64,000 nt of DNA from Actinokineospora enzanensis DSM 44649. Lineage in GTDB: Bacteria > Actinomycetota > Actinomycetes > Mycobacteriales > Pseudonocardiaceae. Of this stretch, positions 29,935 through 44,962 are shown in pieces (within the stretch, counting starts at the first letter, position 1; every line of letters begins with the position of its first letter). The DNA is taken from NCBI RefSeq assembly GCF_000374445.1, contig NZ_KB894408.1, forward strand, positions 116,892-180,891, read 5' to 3'. Under the pieces are notes generated by a model. The model did no database searches, was not told the DNA's origin, and saw only the letters and a list, made by a program, of their open reading frames with translations. Both the position numbers and the translations under genes were made by a program.

Positions 29935-30554
29935 CCAGCGAGGCTAGAACTCGGGATGGCTCCGGCGATTCGTCTGCCCAGGTGATGTTTGGGCTTCTGA
30001 CACGGTCAAGCGCGCGGGTTTGCGACATGGCGAAACTGAGGTGTATCGCGGGTTCTCGCATCTCCGTTACGACACCCCGGTTTTCGCAATCGGGTGAGAG
30101 TGCGATCACGACCGTGCGGTGCCGTGCCCCGACTTCCGGGGGAACACTGTACGGGGCGTGGTCGCCGGGCCCGTGGCGTGGGAAACCTTGCGCGGCACGG
30201 GTCTCCGCCCGGAGCACGGGGGCGACGGTGCGTGATTCCCCGGTCGCCACGGGGATCCACGCCGTCCACCGACCCAGGGGGTGAACCCCGGTAAAGGAAG
30301 CGCAACATCGGCATCGCGTCGGTGAAACCCGGCCGGACGACCGTTCTGTCCACTGTGGTCAGCCGGACCACCAGGCACGCGCCGCGCGCTCGACCATCTC
30401 GGTGTTCGAGACGATCTGCGCGACCGGGTCGCGCGTGGACAGTTTCCGCCCGCCGCGACAGCGCGGCGGGGAGCGCCGAACCCTTGGCCCGATCGGCGGA
30501 TCCGCCCGGTGGGCGGCTTGACCGGGGCCGGTCGCCGGTTGCATCCTGAGCTTA
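29935..30554. other. Gene-free interval, ~620 bases
   Basis: Between HAD (minus) and the FAD oxidoreductase (plus). Open frames on both strands are compositional and show no domain; no RNA or repeat was recognised except the operator-like palindrome at its right end. Confidence 0.35.
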
Positions 30555-33231: not shown

Positions 33232-34896
33232 CTAACGACTCGCGGTGACCTGGCCGACACGCATGGCCTTGTGCGCCAGCGCGTCGCACAGGGCCAGCCA
33301 GCTGGCCTCGACGATGTTGCCGTGCACACCCACCGTGGTCCATTCACGTTCCCGGTCGGTGGACTGCACGAGCACCCGCGTCACCGCGTCGGTGCCGTGC
33401 TCCACCGTGCGCGAGCCCGCCCCGCCCGAGGTCAGGATGCGGACCTTGTAGTCGGTCAGCTCGACCTCGTCCAGCCACGGCAGGTGCGGCAGCAGCGCGC
33501 GGCGCAGCGCGGCGTCGAGCGCGTGCACCGGGCCGTTGCCCTCCGCGGTCGCGATGACGCGCTGCCCGTCGACGCGCACCTTCACCGTCGCCTCGGACAC
33601 CACCGCGCCGTCCTGGCGGTGGTCCAGGATGACCCGGTACGACTCCAGCTCGAACGGCACCACCGGGTCGGTCGCGGCCGGGTCCAGGCCCGCGATCTCG
33701 CCGCGCAGCAGCAGCTCGAACGAGGCGTCCGCGGCCTCGAACGACCAGCCGCGCGCCTCCAACTCCTTCACCTTGCGCAGTGCGTTGGTGACGGCTTCTG
33801 GCTTGCCGGCCAGGTCGACCCCGAGCTCGTGTCCCTTGAGCTCCAGGCTGGCCCGGCCGGCCATCTCGGTGACCAGCACCCGCATGTCGTTGCCGACGGT
33901 GGCCGGATCGATGTGGTTGTACAGCTCCGGGTCCACCTTGATCGCGCTCGCGTGCAGGCCCGCCTTGTGGGCGAAGGCCGACGACCCGACATAGGCCTGG
34001 TGGGTGTCGGGTGCGATGTTGGCGAGTTCGGCAAGGGCATGGGAGACCCGGGTGAGCTCGGCAGGCGTGCCGGTGGGCAGCACCTGGAGGCCGAGCTTGG
34101 TCACGAGATTGCCGATCACGGCGAACAGGTCGGCGTTACCGGCCCGCTCCCCGTAACCGTTCGCGGTGCACTGGACGTGGCTCGCGCCCGCCTGCACAGC
34201 CGCGACACTGTTGGCCACCGCGCAGGACGTGTCGTCCTGGCAGTGGATGCCCACCCGGAAGCCGGTGCGGGCGATGACCTCGCGGACGGTGTCCGCCAGG
34301 CCGAGCGGCAGCTGGCCGCCGTTGGTGTCGCAGAGCACGACCACGTCCGCGCCCGCCTCCGCCGCCGCGGTGAGCACCCGCAGCGAGCAGTCGGGGTCGA
34401 AGGCGTAGCCGTCGAAGAAGTGCTCGGCGTCGAGGAACACCCGGCGCCCCTCCCCGACCAGGAAGCCGACCGTGTCGCGCACCATCTCCACGGCCTCGGC
34501 GACGTCGGTGCGCAGCGCGCGCTCGATGTGCCTGCGGTCGGACTTGGCCACCAGCGTCACCACCGGCGCCTGCGCGTCCAGCAGCGCGCGGACCTGCGGG
34601 TCCTGGGCCGCCGTGCTGCCCGCGCGCCGGGTGGAGCCGAACGCGACCAGGGCCGCGTGCCGCAGTTCCAGCTCACCCGCCGCCGCGCGGGCGAAGAACT
34701 CGGTGTCCTTGGGCAGCGCGCCCGGCCAGCCGCCCTCGATGAACCCGACACCCAGGCCGTCCAGCAGGCGCGCCACGGCGAGCTTGTCGGCGACCGAGTA
34801 GGAGACGCCCTCGCGCTGCGCGCCGTCGCGCAGGGTCGTGTCGTACACGTGGAACGTGTCGCCGAGGGGGGTGCCTGCCGGACTGGTGCGAGTCAC
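33232..34896 (-). CDS. cimA: (R)-citramalate synthase
   Basis: A 554-residue protein. YDTTLRDGAQREGVSYS (~18-34) is the DRE-TIM active-site start; HFFDGYAFD (~160-168), LCDTNGGQLP (~189-198) and HCQDDTSCAVANSVAAVQAG (~219-238) continue the barrel. The ~130-residue C-terminal LeuA_dimer domain is the allosteric part. It condenses pyruvate and acetyl-CoA into citramalate, entering isoleucine synthesis with LeuCD and LeuB instead of threonine dehydratase. AAGGAG is 7 bases before the GTG. Expression is controlled by the attenuator at 35018-35119. The DRE-TIM group also contains 2-isopropylmalate synthase; the FIEGGWPGALPKD motif favours citramalate synthase. Confidence 0.9.
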   Translation of the reverse strand: MTRTSPAGTPLGDTFHVYDTTLRDGAQREGVSYSVADKLAVARLLDGLGVGFIEGGWPGALPKDTEFFARAAAGELELRHAALVAFGSTRRAGSTAAQDPQVRALLDAQAPVVTLVAKSDRRHIERALRTDVAEAVEMVRDTVGFLVGEGRRVFLDAEHFFDGYAFDPDCSLRVLTAAAEAGADVVVLCDTNGGQLPLGLADTVREVIARTGFRVGIHCQDDTSCAVANSVAAVQAGASHVQCTANGYGERAGNADLFAVIGNLVTKLGLQVLPTGTPAELTRVSHALAELANIAPDTHQAYVGSSAFAHKAGLHASAIKVDPELYNHIDPATVGNDMRVLVTEMAGRASLELKGHELGVDLAGKPEAVTNALRKVKELEARGWSFEAADASFELLLRGEIAGLDPAATDPVVPFELESYRVILDHRQDGAVVSEATVKVRVDGQRVIATAEGNGPVHALDAALRRALLPHLPWLDEVELTDYKVRILTSGGAGSRTVEHGTDAVTRVLVQSTDREREWTTVGVHGNIVEASWLALCDALAHKAMRVGQVTASR

Positions 34897-34940
34897 GGGT
34901 CTGCTCCTTGGGAGGGGTCAAGTCTGCGGTAGGGCGGGTG

Positions 34941-34999
34941 GGTGGATAGGCACTGCACGGGTAGGGCGGTGGATAGGCACTGCACGGGTAGGGCGGTGG
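34941..34999. repeat. Tandem 27-bp duplication in the cimA leader
   Basis: Two exact copies of a 27-base unit (starting GGTGGATAGGCAC, ending GGGTAGGGC) at 34941-34967 and 34968-34994, plus five bases of a third. It lies between the attenuator terminator and the cimA Shine-Dalgarno sequence. Confidence 0.85.
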
Positions 35000-35017
35000 C
35001 GTGGGAAGCGGCGCCGG

Positions 35018-35119
35018 AAAACAAAAAGACCCCCCGCGGGTGCGAGAGGTCTGCGCGCTGGGCTTCGGTCGAAGCTACCCAGCGCGCTCGTCGATAATGA
35101 TCACGACGGAGGCGGCCAT
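35018..35119 (-). promoter_or_regulatory. Transcription attenuator of cimA
   Basis: Minus-strand leader RNA. A leader peptide (35075-35119) has consecutive Val-Val-Ile-Ile-Ile codons. After it come a strong hairpin (GCGCGCTGGG / CCCAGCGCGC, 35053-35087, with an inner GCTTCG/CGAAGC stem overlapping the leader's end) and an intrinsic terminator (AGACCTC / GGGGGTCT, 35027-35052, followed by TTTTTGTTTT on the minus strand). The arrangement is classic amino-acid attenuation: scarcity of Ile or Val stalls the ribosome on these codons and lets the RNA avoid the terminator. Confidence 0.8.
35075..35119 (-). CDS. cimA leader peptide MAASVVIIIDERAG
   Basis: A 14-codon ORF whose stop lies inside the hairpin. 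It has Val x2 and Ile x3 in a row, the expected regulatory codons for a branched-chain amino acid operon. Upstream CAGTAT lies 6 bases before the ATG, suggesting leaderless translation. Confidence 0.7.
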   Translation of the reverse strand: MAASVVIIIDERAG

Positions 35120-35207
35120 GCCGCGATACTGGCACACCGCGCGCGGCCGGGTCCACTCCACGGACCGCGACTCCCACCATGTGGGTGGCGTTATCGGCGG
35201 TGAACGC

Positions 35208-35240
35208 CGACGGCCGCCCCGGTTCGCGGGGCGGCCGTCG
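35208..35240 (-). terminator. Terminator after leuB
   Basis: Perfect 13-bp stem CGACGGCCGCCCC / GGGGCGGCCGTCG with a 7-base loop, 18 bases after leuB. It separates leuB from the cimA leader, so cimA has its own promoter. Confidence 0.75.
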
Positions 35241-35258
35241 GTGCGAAACGCCTGGTGG

Positions 35259-36296
35259 TCAGGCGGTCTTGGCGTTCGAGGACACCAGCGCGGCGAGCCG
35301 GTCGCCGATGGCGAACGTGCCGCCCGGCGAACCGTGGTCGCGGGTGGCGAGGTCGAAGGCCACCGAGGCCTCGATCCGCCGCGCCGCCTCCACCTCGCCG
35401 AGGTGGTCGAGCAGCAGCGCCACCGACAGCACCGCGGCCGTCGGGTCGGCGATGCCCTGGCCCGCGATGTCCGGCGCGCTGCCGTGCACCGGCTCGAACA
35501 TGCTCGGGTTGCGCTTGGTGATGTCCAGGTTGCCGCTGGCCGCCAGCCCGATGCCGCCGGTGACCGCCGCCGCCAGGTCGGTGAGGATGTCGCCGAACAG
35601 GTTGTCGGTGACGATCACGTCGAACCGGGCCGGGTCGGTGACCATGTGGATGGTCGTGGCGTCCACGTGCTGGTAGGCCACGGTCACGTCCGGGTGCTGC
35701 AGGGACACCTCCTCGACCACACGCGACCACAACGAGCCCGCGTGGGTGAGGACGTTCGTCTTGTGGACGAGCGTGAGGTGCTTGCGCGGGCGCGCCGACG
35801 CGCGGGTGAACGCGTCCCGCACCACCCGCTCCACGCCGAAGGAGGTGTTGACGCTGACCTCCGTGGCGATCTCGTGCGGAGTGTCCTTTCGCAACAGACC
35901 GCCGTTGCCTGCGTAGAGCCCCTCGGTGCCCTCCCGGACCACGATCATGTCGATCTCGCCCGGGTCCGCGATCGGGCTCTTCACGCCCGGGTAGAGCCGC
36001 GCCGGGCGCAGGTTCACGTGGTGGTCGAGCTCGAAGCGCAGCCGCAGCAGCAGCCCGCGCTCCAGGATGCCGCTGGGCACCGACGGATCGCCAACCGCGC
36101 CGAGCAGGATGGCGTCGTGTTCGCGCAGCTCCGCGAGCACGGACTCCGGCAGGAGCTCCCCCGTCGCGTGCCAGCGCGCCGCGCCGAGGTCGTATCGGGT
36201 GATCTCCGCGGTCGGAACGACCTCACCGAGCACCTTCAGCGCCTCGGCGATCACTTCCGGCCCGATCCCGTCACCTGGGATCACCGCGAGCCGCAT
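35259..36296 (-). CDS. leuB: 3-isopropylmalate dehydrogenase
   Basis: A 345-residue beta-decarboxylating dehydrogenase. Starts [26 protein letters not shown] near 135-145 and [20 protein letters not shown] near 235-254 are NAD and substrate motifs; [18 protein letters not shown] near 271-288 is the NAD-binding tail. It makes 2-ketoisocaproate, and 2-ketobutyrate from beta-methylmalate in the citramalate route. GGAGGT lies 6 bases before the ATG. Confidence 0.95.
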
Positions 36297-36432
36297 GCAC
36301 ACACCTCCCGGGTATCGGCCCGAACTGACAGGGCCTGCTAGTCGAGGGAAGGCTACCGGCATGCGGTCCGTTCGCCGCATCTCGCCACCCCTCCGGGTGG
36401 AGTTTTCCGGTCACATCCGGCCGCGGGGGACA

Positions 36433-36515: not shown

Positions 36516-38111
36516 TCAGGCGAAGTCGACCGACCGCACCAGGGTGGCGCCGATCGACGCGCCGATGGACTCCAGCACCGAGGCGTCCACCGCGCGGTCC
36601 ACCCGCAGCAGCATGACCGCGTCGGTGCCCGCGCTGGTCTGGCTGATCTGGGCGGCGTCGATGTTGACCCCGGCCTCGCCGAGCAGGGTGCCGACGGTGC
36701 CCATCACGCCCGGCCGCTCCGGGTACTCCAGCAGCACGACGTCGCCCTCGGCGCGCAGGTCGAACGAGCGCCCGTGCACCTCCACCAGCTTCTCCACCTG
36801 GCCGAGGCCGGACAGGGTGCCGCTGACGGTGACCGCCGCGCCGTCCGGGTAGACGCCGCGCAGGGTGACCACGCTGCGGTGGTTGAGGCTCTCGCTCTCC
36901 TTGGCGACCTCGACCGTGACGCCCAGCGTCTCGGCCAGCCGCGGCGCGTTGACGAAGGTCACCTGGTCCTCGACGATGCCCGCGAACACCCCGCGCAGCG
37001 CGGCCAGCGGCAGGATCGAGACGTCCTCAGTGGACAGTTCGCCGCGGACCTGCACGGTGATCGACGTCGGCGCCTTGCCGCCCAGCGCGGACAGCACGGT
37101 GCCCAGCTTCTGGGTCAGCGACAGGTACGGGCGCACCTCCTCGCCGACCACGCCACCGGCCACGTTGACCGCGTCCGGCACGAAGTCGCCGCGCAGCGCC
37201 AGCCGCACCGAGTGCGCCACGTCGGTGCCCGCCCGGTCCTGCGCCTCGGCGGTGGAGGCGCCCAGGTGCGGGGTCACCACGATGCCGGGCACGCCGAACA
37301 GCACGCTGTCGGTGGTCGGCTCCTTGCTGTACACGTCCACGCCAGCGCCGCCGACCTGGCCGGAGCGCACCGCCTCGGCCAGCGCGTCCTCGTCGATGAG
37401 GCCACCGCGGGCGGCGTTGACGATGATGACGCCCTTCTTGGTCCTGGCCAGCGCGGCGGCGTCGATCAGGCCCTTGGTCTCCGGCGTCTTGGGCAGGTGC
37501 ACGGAGATGAAGTCGGCGCGGGCCAGCAGCTCGTCCAGCTCCACCAGCTCGATGCCCAGCTGCGCGGCGCGCGCGGCGGAGGCGTACGGGTCGTAGGCGA
37601 TCAGCGTGGTGCCGAACGCGGCCAGGCGCTGGGCGAACAGCTGCCCGATCTTGCCCATGCCGACCACGCCGACGGTCTTGCCGAGCACCTCCACCCCGGA
37701 GAACGCGCTGCGCTTCCACTGCCCCTCCTGCAGCGTGGCGTGCGCGGCGGGGATCTGGCGCGCGGTGGCCAACAGCAGCGCCACGGCGTGCTCGGCGGCC
37801 GACACGATGTTGGACGTCGGCGCGTTCACGACCAGCACACCGCGCTCGGTGGCGGCAGGCACGTCCACGTTGTCGAGGCCGACACCCGCGCGCGCGACCA
37901 CCTTGAGCGTGTCGGTGGCCTTGAGCACCTCGGCATCGACCTGGGTCGCCGACCGCACAAGCAGCGCGTCGGCCCCGGCGACGGCGGCGAGCAGGGCGGG
38001 CCGGTCGGTGCCGTCGACGTGGCGGACCTCGAACTCGTCACCGAAGACGTCCAGCACGGACGGCGCGAGCTTCTCGGCGATGAGGACGACGGGACGGCTC
38101 GTAGTAGTCAC
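36516..38111 (-). CDS. serA: D-3-phosphoglycerate dehydrogenase
   Basis: A 531-residue long-form enzyme. The N-terminal catalytic and NAD-binding domains hold VGVVGMGKIGQLFA (~140-153), NAARGGLIDEDAL (~230-242) and HLGASTAEAQ (~281-290) with the catalytic His. An allosteric-substrate-binding domain (~310-450) and C-terminal ACT domain (VVLLEYPERPGVMGTVG near 460) follow, typical of actinobacterial type-I PGDH, which is inhibited by serine. First step of serine synthesis. GTG start chosen because AGGAG is 7 bases upstream; the upstream frame would add 9 residues. Confidence 0.96.
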   Translation of the reverse strand: MTTTSRPVVLIAEKLAPSVLDVFGDEFEVRHVDGTDRPALLAAVAGADALLVRSATQVDAEVLKATDTLKVVARAGVGLDNVDVPAATERGVLVVNAPTSNIVSAAEHAVALLLATARQIPAAHATLQEGQWKRSAFSGVEVLGKTVGVVGMGKIGQLFAQRLAAFGTTLIAYDPYASAARAAQLGIELVELDELLARADFISVHLPKTPETKGLIDAAALARTKKGVIIVNAARGGLIDEDALAEAVRSGQVGGAGVDVYSKEPTTDSVLFGVPGIVVTPHLGASTAEAQDRAGTDVAHSVRLALRGDFVPDAVNVAGGVVGEEVRPYLSLTQKLGTVLSALGGKAPTSITVQVRGELSTEDVSILPLAALRGVFAGIVEDQVTFVNAPRLAETLGVTVEVAKESESLNHRSVVTLRGVYPDGAAVTVSGTLSGLGQVEKLVEVHGRSFDLRAEGDVVLLEYPERPGVMGTVGTLLGEAGVNIDAAQISQTSAGTDAVMLLRVDRAVDASVLESIGASIGATLVRSVDFA

Positions 38112-38174
38112 GCGGCGACTCCTGGGCTTTAAGGGCATGGGAGGGAGGTGGTTACGACGCTGTAACCCGAGCCG

Positions 38175-44687: not shown

Positions 44688-44842
44688 CGGATTCTGCCTC
44701 GTGGGTCTTGGTGTTCTCGGCTGGTGGCGTGGCGGGTGGGGGATCGGTCGGCCCGGTCCGGGTCGGTCGGAGGTCAGGTCGGTCGGAAGTCGGGTCGGTC
44801 GGAAGTCGGAGTGTCGGTCGTGCGAATACGGGCCTGGACACG

Positions 44843-44962
44843 AAAAAACCCCCGTCGACCGACAGTGGTCGCACGAGGGTCGCGCGTTCGACGCGGAGTG
44901 GGAGCTAGCTTCCGTCAGCGTCGAACGCGCGGCGGAAGTACGAGAATGGAGTGGACGGGCAC
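44843..44962 (-). promoter_or_regulatory. Transcription attenuator of ilvBNC
   Basis: Minus-strand leader. After the leader peptide (44915-44962) a perfect 14-bp hairpin forms (CGCGCGTTCGACGC / GCGTCGAACGCGCG; 44881-44894 with 44918-44931). The terminator pairs ACCCTCGT-G-CGACC with GGTCGACGGGGGT (44848-44880, one bulged G), ending in TTTTTT (44843-44848). Ile, Leu or Val starvation would stall the ribosome on the leader and free the RNA from termination. Confidence 0.85.
44915..44962 (-). CDS. ilvB leader peptide [15 protein letters not shown]
   Basis: A 15-codon ORF with Ile-Leu-Val-Leu in a row plus two more Val. GTG start is 7 bases after the TAGCGT -10, so the peptide is probably translated from a leaderless mRNA. 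Its stop overlaps the first hairpin arm. Confidence 0.78.

Follow-up and report, generated by a model that had tools for sequence, protein, structure and literature searches.

A candidate isoleucine-sensing leader-peptide attenuator ahead of the citramalate synthase gene cimA in Actinokineospora enzanensis and its relatives

The region between leuB and cimA of Actinokineospora enzanensis DSM 44649 most probably carries an isoleucine-specific leader-peptide transcription attenuator of cimA, a reading to which we give a probability of about 0.85. As far as sequence can speak to it, the presence of a leader-peptide transcription attenuator ahead of cimA is strongly supported. Sequence comparison and folding establish the parts of the element, their conservation and spacing and the covarying base pairs, together with the match between codons and gene and, in the folding model, the dependence of its first hairpin on the ribosome.

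Parts of the cimA leader

The gene cimA (33232..34896, minus strand, GTG start at 34896) encodes a citramalate synthase of 554 amino acids (TIGR00977, 572 bits against a cut-off of 450) with HMGL-like and LeuA_dimer domains. It lies in what we call the window, the whole stretch of 64,000 nucleotides that was analysed, from a genome of 8.1 Mb, and leuB (35259-36380) and serA (36516-38138) stand upstream of it on the same minus strand. The product of cimA is the entry enzyme of the isoleucine route that does not start from threonine, and since citramalate leads to isoleucine, a leader with Ile codons fits the pathway of the gene. The best match to the threonine deaminase profile in the same genome scores 288.6 bits, below the cut-off of 378.75.

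Between leuB and cimA an open reading frame of 14 codons (35075..35119, minus strand; ATG at 35119, TAG at 35077-35075), which starts ~139 nt past the leuB stop codon, encodes the peptide MAASVVIIIDERAG. It opens with ATG GCC GCC TCC, continues with GTC GTG and then ATC ATT ATC, and closes with GAC GAG CGC GCT GGG before the TAG; the three Ile codons ATC ATT ATC (35093..35101, minus strand), unpaired in the consensus structure, are the likely sensor. Five nucleotides past the last of them begins a hairpin of 35 nt and 10 bp, P1 (GCGCGCTGGG / CCCAGCGCGC; 35053..35087, minus strand), identified by folding and covariation. The stem (35052-35027) of an intrinsic terminator, T, adjoins P1 without a spacer; T was found by a terminator scan and by covariation, and consists of AGACCTCTCGC-ACCC-GCGGGGGGTCT followed by the U-tract TTTTGTTTT (35018..35052, minus strand). 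The 14-residue peptide, the hairpin and the U-rich terminator that a preliminary description had placed ahead of cimA were thereby all recovered, on the minus strand. That description also had a 35-base hairpin overlapping the stop codon of the peptide; the length was right, and the geometry is amended here in that the 5' arm of P1 is made of the final codons of the peptide and the stop codon comes after that arm, where the stem meets the loop.

The terminator scan of 34850-35270 returned T as its one terminator-like site, against a mean of 0.2 in shuffled sequence, and the segment 34985-35135 folds at -67.7 kcal/mol compared with -54.0 (sd 3.7) for its shuffles (z -3.7, 0 of 200 as good). The motif AAGGAG (34904..34909, minus strand), read from the sequence, is the probable ribosome-binding site of cimA; it lies ~109 nt past T and outside the conserved model. 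Two other features of the region were noted. A tandemly repeated unit of 27 nt, CCACCGCCCTACCCGTGCAGTGCCTAT, is seen by eye between T and cimA (~34940-35000, minus strand), and just past the 3' end of leuB (~35208-35240) stands a strong G-C hairpin lacking a U-tract, at which the leuB transcript may end.

Conservation, range and sister leaders

We fetched 110 cimA loci, 30 from relatives and 80 from named genomes (Kutzneria, Amycolatopsis, Lentzea and Saccharothrix among them), and searched upstream of cimA for a terminator together with an Ile codon shortly before a GCGC stem, a distance of 5 nt being preferred. The leader element was present in 64 of the 110 loci, including all 40 of L001-L040, counts that are not independent because the two collections may hold the same species. 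The 46 loci without the standard form include many uncultured actinobacterial bins, Acidimicrobiia and non-actinobacteria; six of them (L046, L048, L071, L096, L104, L110) have a terminator of another form, and in three of these (L046, L096, L104) Ile codons can be seen by eye near the variant terminator, with or without a hairpin.

Spacing within the 64 leaders is constant. The last regulatory codon is 5 nt from P1 (GCGC) in 61 and 8 nt in the other 3; P1 and T adjoin directly (0 nt) in 56 leaders and are 1 nt apart in 8, and by eye the gap extends to a few nt in more distant leaders. The last regulatory codon (ATC 33, ATT 31) was required by the search rule to be Ile, as was the U-tract terminator to be present, while the second-last codon formed no part of the rule and is nevertheless Ile in 63 of 64 (ATT 55, ATC 8). 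At the third-last position we count Ile 40, Leu 11 and Val 5, and one leader, L058, is included in the 64 yet lacks an Ile run. From these codon counts it follows that the leader peptide is kept while third bases vary, and this in an unpaired stretch. Valine stands at the fourth-last codon in 24 of the 64 leaders and anywhere within the last four in 27. The earlier proposal of an isoleucine/valine attenuator with conserved VVIII codons can therefore be retained for the attenuator and for isoleucine, whose second-last codon is so well kept; VVIII as such is not preserved across the 64 leaders, and we reject valine as a conserved sensor. Of the 68 terminators upstream of cimA, 62 have a hairpin abutting them on the 5' side, versus 2 of the 36 other terminator-like sites that these loci contain. 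As judged from these comparisons, the conserved unit is an Ile run, 5 nt, a hairpin, 0-1 nt and a terminator.

Covariation was assessed in an alignment of 57 leaders, A1, from which seven of the 64 were left out (L007, L014, L023, L035, L038, L050 and L058) as near-duplicates, for their long loops or, with L058, for the missing Ile run. The consensus fold of A1 consists of P1 and T, with the regulatory codons outside every pair; 97.3% of cells are paired, double changes occur in 10 of 19 pairs, and none of 500 shuffles attains these values. Both-side changes are found in 6 of the 10 pairs of P1, the outer four of which (GCGC/GCGC) are invariant in the 57 sequences while the inner pairs covary. 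When the partner is shifted by 1-3 columns pairing falls to 40-57%, a control that is biased toward the structure because the structure was derived from the same alignment.

The leader transcript probably begins at or next to the leader start codon. A putative promoter, TGGACC (35155-35150), 18 nt and CAGTAT (35131-35126), was read from the sequence of the window (35126..35155, minus strand), where a plain scan of the leader region found no sigma-70 promoter. Since this putative promoter ends 6 nt ahead of the leader ATG, the transcript would be leaderless. Of the 64 cimA leaders, 51 have a start codon in frame (ATG or GTG) 6-7 nt behind a [TC]A...T box, compared with 2.1% when the upstream sequence is shuffled; the other 13 leaders do not have this pattern. 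The spacing from box to start resembles that of leaderless leader-peptide transcripts of S. lividans, reported for IlvL and other leader peptides in the available part of PMC8079986.

A covariance model, R1, was built from A1 and hence mostly from one class, so that more diverged leaders elsewhere may be missed. On the window it gives the cimA leader 99 bits, followed by an ilvB leader with 25.9 bits (E 5e-5). In the relatives' set of 61 genomes, whose R1 matches were compared by hand with the positions of cimA, a match lies directly upstream of cimA in all 35 same-family genomes that have the gene (27 of these leaders being in A1), and loss of the leader frame and terminator among close relatives, which the preliminary description had held up as damaging to the idea, is therefore not what is seen. 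Among other families of the order the leader precedes cimA in 15 of 20 genomes with the gene. The five genomes without it (G037, G038, G039, G053 and G054) have cimA 5 to 150 nt past leuB, and a script found no short I/L/V-rich open reading frame in the stretch taken from them. Six of the 61 genomes have no full cimA and no cimA-type leader among their R1 matches. In one of the six, G029 (L194, G029:C1), a member of the same family without cimA, the end of leuB is followed, by eye, by a fumarylacetoacetate-hydrolase-like gene, which is the gene found behind cimA in the window.

The phylum set holds 198 genomes, 154 of them with cimA; three positions outside the main cimA listing were looked up and are all partial genes. 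Apart from the window's own genome, leaders precede cimA in 9 of 9 genomes with the gene from other orders of the same class, and in the rest of the phylum R1 has a match directly upstream of cimA, with E 0.01 or better, in 2 of 144 genomes (G115 and G246). In a further genome, G192 (L195, G192:C9), an Ile leader stands ahead of a leuB-ilvE-cimA run.

The same layout recurs before other genes. We examined 70 R1 matches together with the genes behind them, the window's own being one of the 70: 21 of the 30 in the relatives' set that were not cimA leaders (L192-L194 were looked at separately) and 49 of the 60 in the phylum set. Twelve lie upstream of cimA and have two to four Ile each (L118, placed by position, and L117, the window's own, are among them). 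Upstream of ilvB there are 43, whose four model codons total Leu 65, Val 62 and Ile 30, a few of these leaders having no clear codon run; four matches upstream of leuS and two upstream of leuA have Leu runs; and of two upstream of leuB, one reads III in a leuB-ilvE-cimA run and the other is weak. The type of codon thus matches the gene, Ile for cimA, Leu/Val/Ile for ilvB and Leu for leuS and leuA. Six matches (L129, L135, L141, L143, L145, L177) have no assigned gene class; of these, L129, L135 and L143 have predicted peptides resembling those of ilvB leaders. Weak matches at L192, L193, L141, L145 and L177, and one at 30392-30434 of the window, were set aside as chance or unassigned.

The sister element of the window, the ilvB leader (44838..44960, minus strand; R1 match at 44838..44950, 25.9 bits), has by eye a GTG start and the codons ATT CTC GTA CTT, with a P1-like hairpin and terminator laid out as in the cimA leader. 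Five ilvB leaders among the R1 matches encode MRTRILVLGKRVG, the IlvL peptide published for S. lividans (available part of PMC8079986), and this anchors the family to a described attenuator; genomes that resemble Streptomyces by this peptide also have the cimA leader. The regulatory codons of the window's cimA leader and of ilvB leaders among L128-L186 are often rare synonymous ones, ATT, GTA and CTT. In seven genes of the window, 2 of the 136 codons for Ile are ATT, 1 of the 342 for Val is GTA and 3 of the 288 for Leu are CTT. Further observations concern single leaders. L151 (G035:C6, 280-380), found in one genome only, encodes the Ile leader MSLGLIIIDGAG up to its stop codon, with GLIIID and the same layout, before a gene of the Glu/Leu/Phe/Val dehydrogenase type. 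L127 (G110) and L137 (G085) carry leaders ending in LLLT and LLLL before the stop, each with a terminator, ahead of leuA; in this they differ from the LEU element that is described at leuA of other actinobacteria (available part of PMC1262725).

Mechanism and alternative readings

In the mechanism that we propose, transcription would set in at the start codon of the leader or immediately beside it, and a ribosome would begin to translate MAASVVIIIDERAG. With enough Ile-tRNA the ribosome would reach the stop codon and cover the 5' arm of P1; P1 being blocked, T would form and cimA would not be transcribed. With too little Ile-tRNA the ribosome would halt on the first Ile codon, its leading edge just short of P1, so that P1 could form and RNA polymerase would pass T into cimA. 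The G-C-rich P1, joined without a linker to the base of T, would act by preventing the closure of T within the exit channel of RNA polymerase. In vivo, termination at T is probable, as is a response of cimA to isoleucine.

The folding model bears on several of these steps. Ribosome masks were applied to the 64 leaders, reaching 11 nt past the codon as derived from the 26-nt footprint in the available part of PMC13236596. Under these masks P1 formation depends on the position of the ribosome, its probability falling from 0.999 with the ribosome on the first of the three codons to 0.41 at the second and 0.01 at the third, and reaching 0 with the ribosome at the stop codon. In the window, 11 nt separate the end of the first Ile codon from P1, so that the leading edge of a ribosome stalled there would lie just ahead of P1. 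According to the model, P1 is weakened or lost if the stall comes one or two codons later, which is a point against the explanation we consider best. T has a mean probability of at least 0.998 in every ribosome state of the 64 cimA leaders, and its 5' arm pairs little with upstream sequence in nascent RNA (means 0.01-0.21, with no more than 5 of 64 leaders exceeding 0.5); for these two reasons equilibrium folding gives no switch. T is likewise high in ilvB leaders (mean 0.95-0.96 over all three states, with single low cases) and little altered by ribosome state in leuS, leuA and the remaining classes.

Inspection of the leaders by eye and masked folding were both used to seek a trp-type antiterminator, which we reject; the masked folding of the 64 leaders, a thermodynamic model only, predicts no antiterminator overlapping T, and for this reason the switching step is something that we infer. 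A physical clamp is judged the likeliest means because P1 and T do not overlap, and because T is unchanged by the state of the ribosome while the junction is constant, P1 would oppose T through that junction.

The main rival to the clamp takes P1 as a mere pause hairpin, holding RNA polymerase for the ribosome, with the switching left to timing or to an antiterminator that is too weak or kinetic. The first hairpin of trp-type attenuators is a pause hairpin, and the majority of cimA leaders have a C-G step 9 nt past the end of P1 (in columns 70 and 71 of A1 the pairs are C-G in 52 of 57 and G-C in 48 of 57), which is near the distance of hairpin pauses. With the ribosome on the third codon, moreover, 5 of 64 leaders show upstream pairing of the T 5' arm at a probability above 0.5. 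Against this, the distance to a C-G step is different in the ilvB leaders when read by eye, no conserved partner of the T 5' arm was seen in the 64 leaders, and the 0-1 nt junction of P1 and T would be needless for a pause; we hold this role to be rather unlikely. The same junction could be read in the opposite sense, P1 and T being stacked and P1 aiding termination, and starvation would then lower cimA expression. Zero spacing between P1 and T would indeed favour coaxial stacking, but the sense of regulation is opposite to that expected of a biosynthetic gene and to that reported for M. tuberculosis ilvB1 (available part of PMC13236596), which makes stacking very unlikely.

A further reading has the element act on cimA translation or RNA stability instead of transcription, and it finds precedent in candidate leader peptides of actinobacterial cys operons without obvious terminators (available part of PMC1262725) and in the translation attenuation reported for M. 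smegmatis cys genes (cited in the available part of PMC13236596). However, a U-tract terminator is present in all 64 cimA leaders, as the search rule demanded, its stem covaries, and the probable ribosome-binding site of cimA falls well past T and outside the conserved model, so that we consider an action at this level highly improbable. Least credible of all is the view that we are dealing with the ordinary terminator of leuB, or with two adjacent hairpins that end the upstream transcript, next to a short open reading frame that arose by chance. The nearness of the leader to the leuB stop codon speaks for it, but leuB has a G-C hairpin of its own (~35240-35208), and the Ile codons, the spacing and the arrangement of the start are kept across families, with the same layout and other codons ahead of ilvB, leuA and leuS. 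A simple leuB terminator is strongly disfavoured by this conservation, by the counts of abutting hairpins and by the recurrence of the layout elsewhere.

Returning to the attenuator with a P1 clamp, we tentatively extend it beyond cimA: it is possible, with the odds somewhat against it, that the cimA, ilvB, leuS and leuA leaders form one antiterminator-free family that works by a steric clamp, a G-C-rich, ribosome-gated hairpin with at most a short linker to the base of the terminator, and in which only codons are exchanged according to the gene and are often the rare synonymous ATT, GTA and CTT.

Comparison with known attenuators

In the enteric trp and ilvGMEDA attenuators, a ribosome stalled on regulatory codons determines whether transcription ends or reads on, and an antiterminator overlaps the terminator. 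The cimA leader would share the choice made by stalling, while an overlapping antiterminator is not predicted in it; a structure under the control of the ribosome, as in trp-type systems, is found in P1, whose modelled probability goes from 0.999 on the first codon to 0 at the stop. This dependence has the same sense as that proposed for M. tuberculosis ilvB1, where a stall would let an antiterminator form and a ribosome at the stop codon would prevent it, and where induction was lost once the LVVI codons had been replaced by Ala (available part of PMC13236596). Against the reading proposed here, altered regulatory codons of S. coelicolor ilvB were without regulatory effect (cited in the available part of PMC1262725).

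Amino-acid attenuation of ilvB in actinobacteria, invoked in the preliminary description, is indeed described in the literature. The ilvB (ilvBNC/ilvBHC) attenuators of Corynebacterium, Mycobacterium and Streptomyces likewise have a short, often leaderless open reading frame of branched-chain codons (available parts of PMC1262725, PMC8079986 and PMC13236596), and a candidate U-tract terminator precedes the gene as in the cimA leader. The conserved codons differ, being Ile only in the cimA leader and a mix of Leu, Val and Ile in ilvB leaders. Attenuators of leuS in Streptomyces, for which an antiterminator hairpin has been described, have the same layout with a Leu run and differ in sensor codon and gene (available part of PMC1262725). 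Three features of these ilvB/leuS-type systems, namely a branched-chain-codon reading frame, a U-tract terminator and codons that fit the gene product, are found ahead of cimA.

Two other actinobacterial devices, both described in the available part of PMC1262725, invite comparison. The LEU element of leuA places end-product codons ahead of the gene of an isopropylmalate-synthase relative, as the cimA leader does; it is a pseudoknot pairing its Leu codons with the ribosome-binding site and possibly bound by protein, whereas the cimA leader of the window has no Leu run and has a terminator. The T-box of ileS also senses the charging of isoleucine tRNA, for which the cimA leader would use a ribosome on codons. 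Membership of an Rfam family or of the T-box class is rejected for the cimA leader: Rfam 15 has no match at gathering score on the element, and its seven matches, all far below that score, include no T-box.

Within the parts of the literature available, PMC1262725 describes ilvB, leuA, leuS, trp, trpS, cys and ileS elements in actinobacteria, and cimA or citramalate does not occur in that text. PMC8079986 lists eight S. lividans leader peptides, none of them for cimA, and the part available does not mention cimA or citramalate; the available part of PMC13158618 brings up cimA solely in connection with auxotrophy and refers to the ilvBNC attenuator of C. glutamicum, and that of PMC12857756 has nothing on cimA attenuation. 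No report of a cimA leader or attenuator was found in the open-licence literature, judged partly by titles and the beginnings of abstracts.

If the reading is true, an Ile-only switch would tie the citramalate route to isoleucine charging alone, in a genome whose ilvB reads Leu/Val/Ile. A widespread regulatory RNA would be added to actinomycete annotation, providing a defined element for studies of isoleucine supply, and the cimA leader would offer a simple system in which to test what may be a new mode of antitermination. Among the systems compared here, the cimA leader is a new addition to the known leader-peptide attenuators of actinobacteria.
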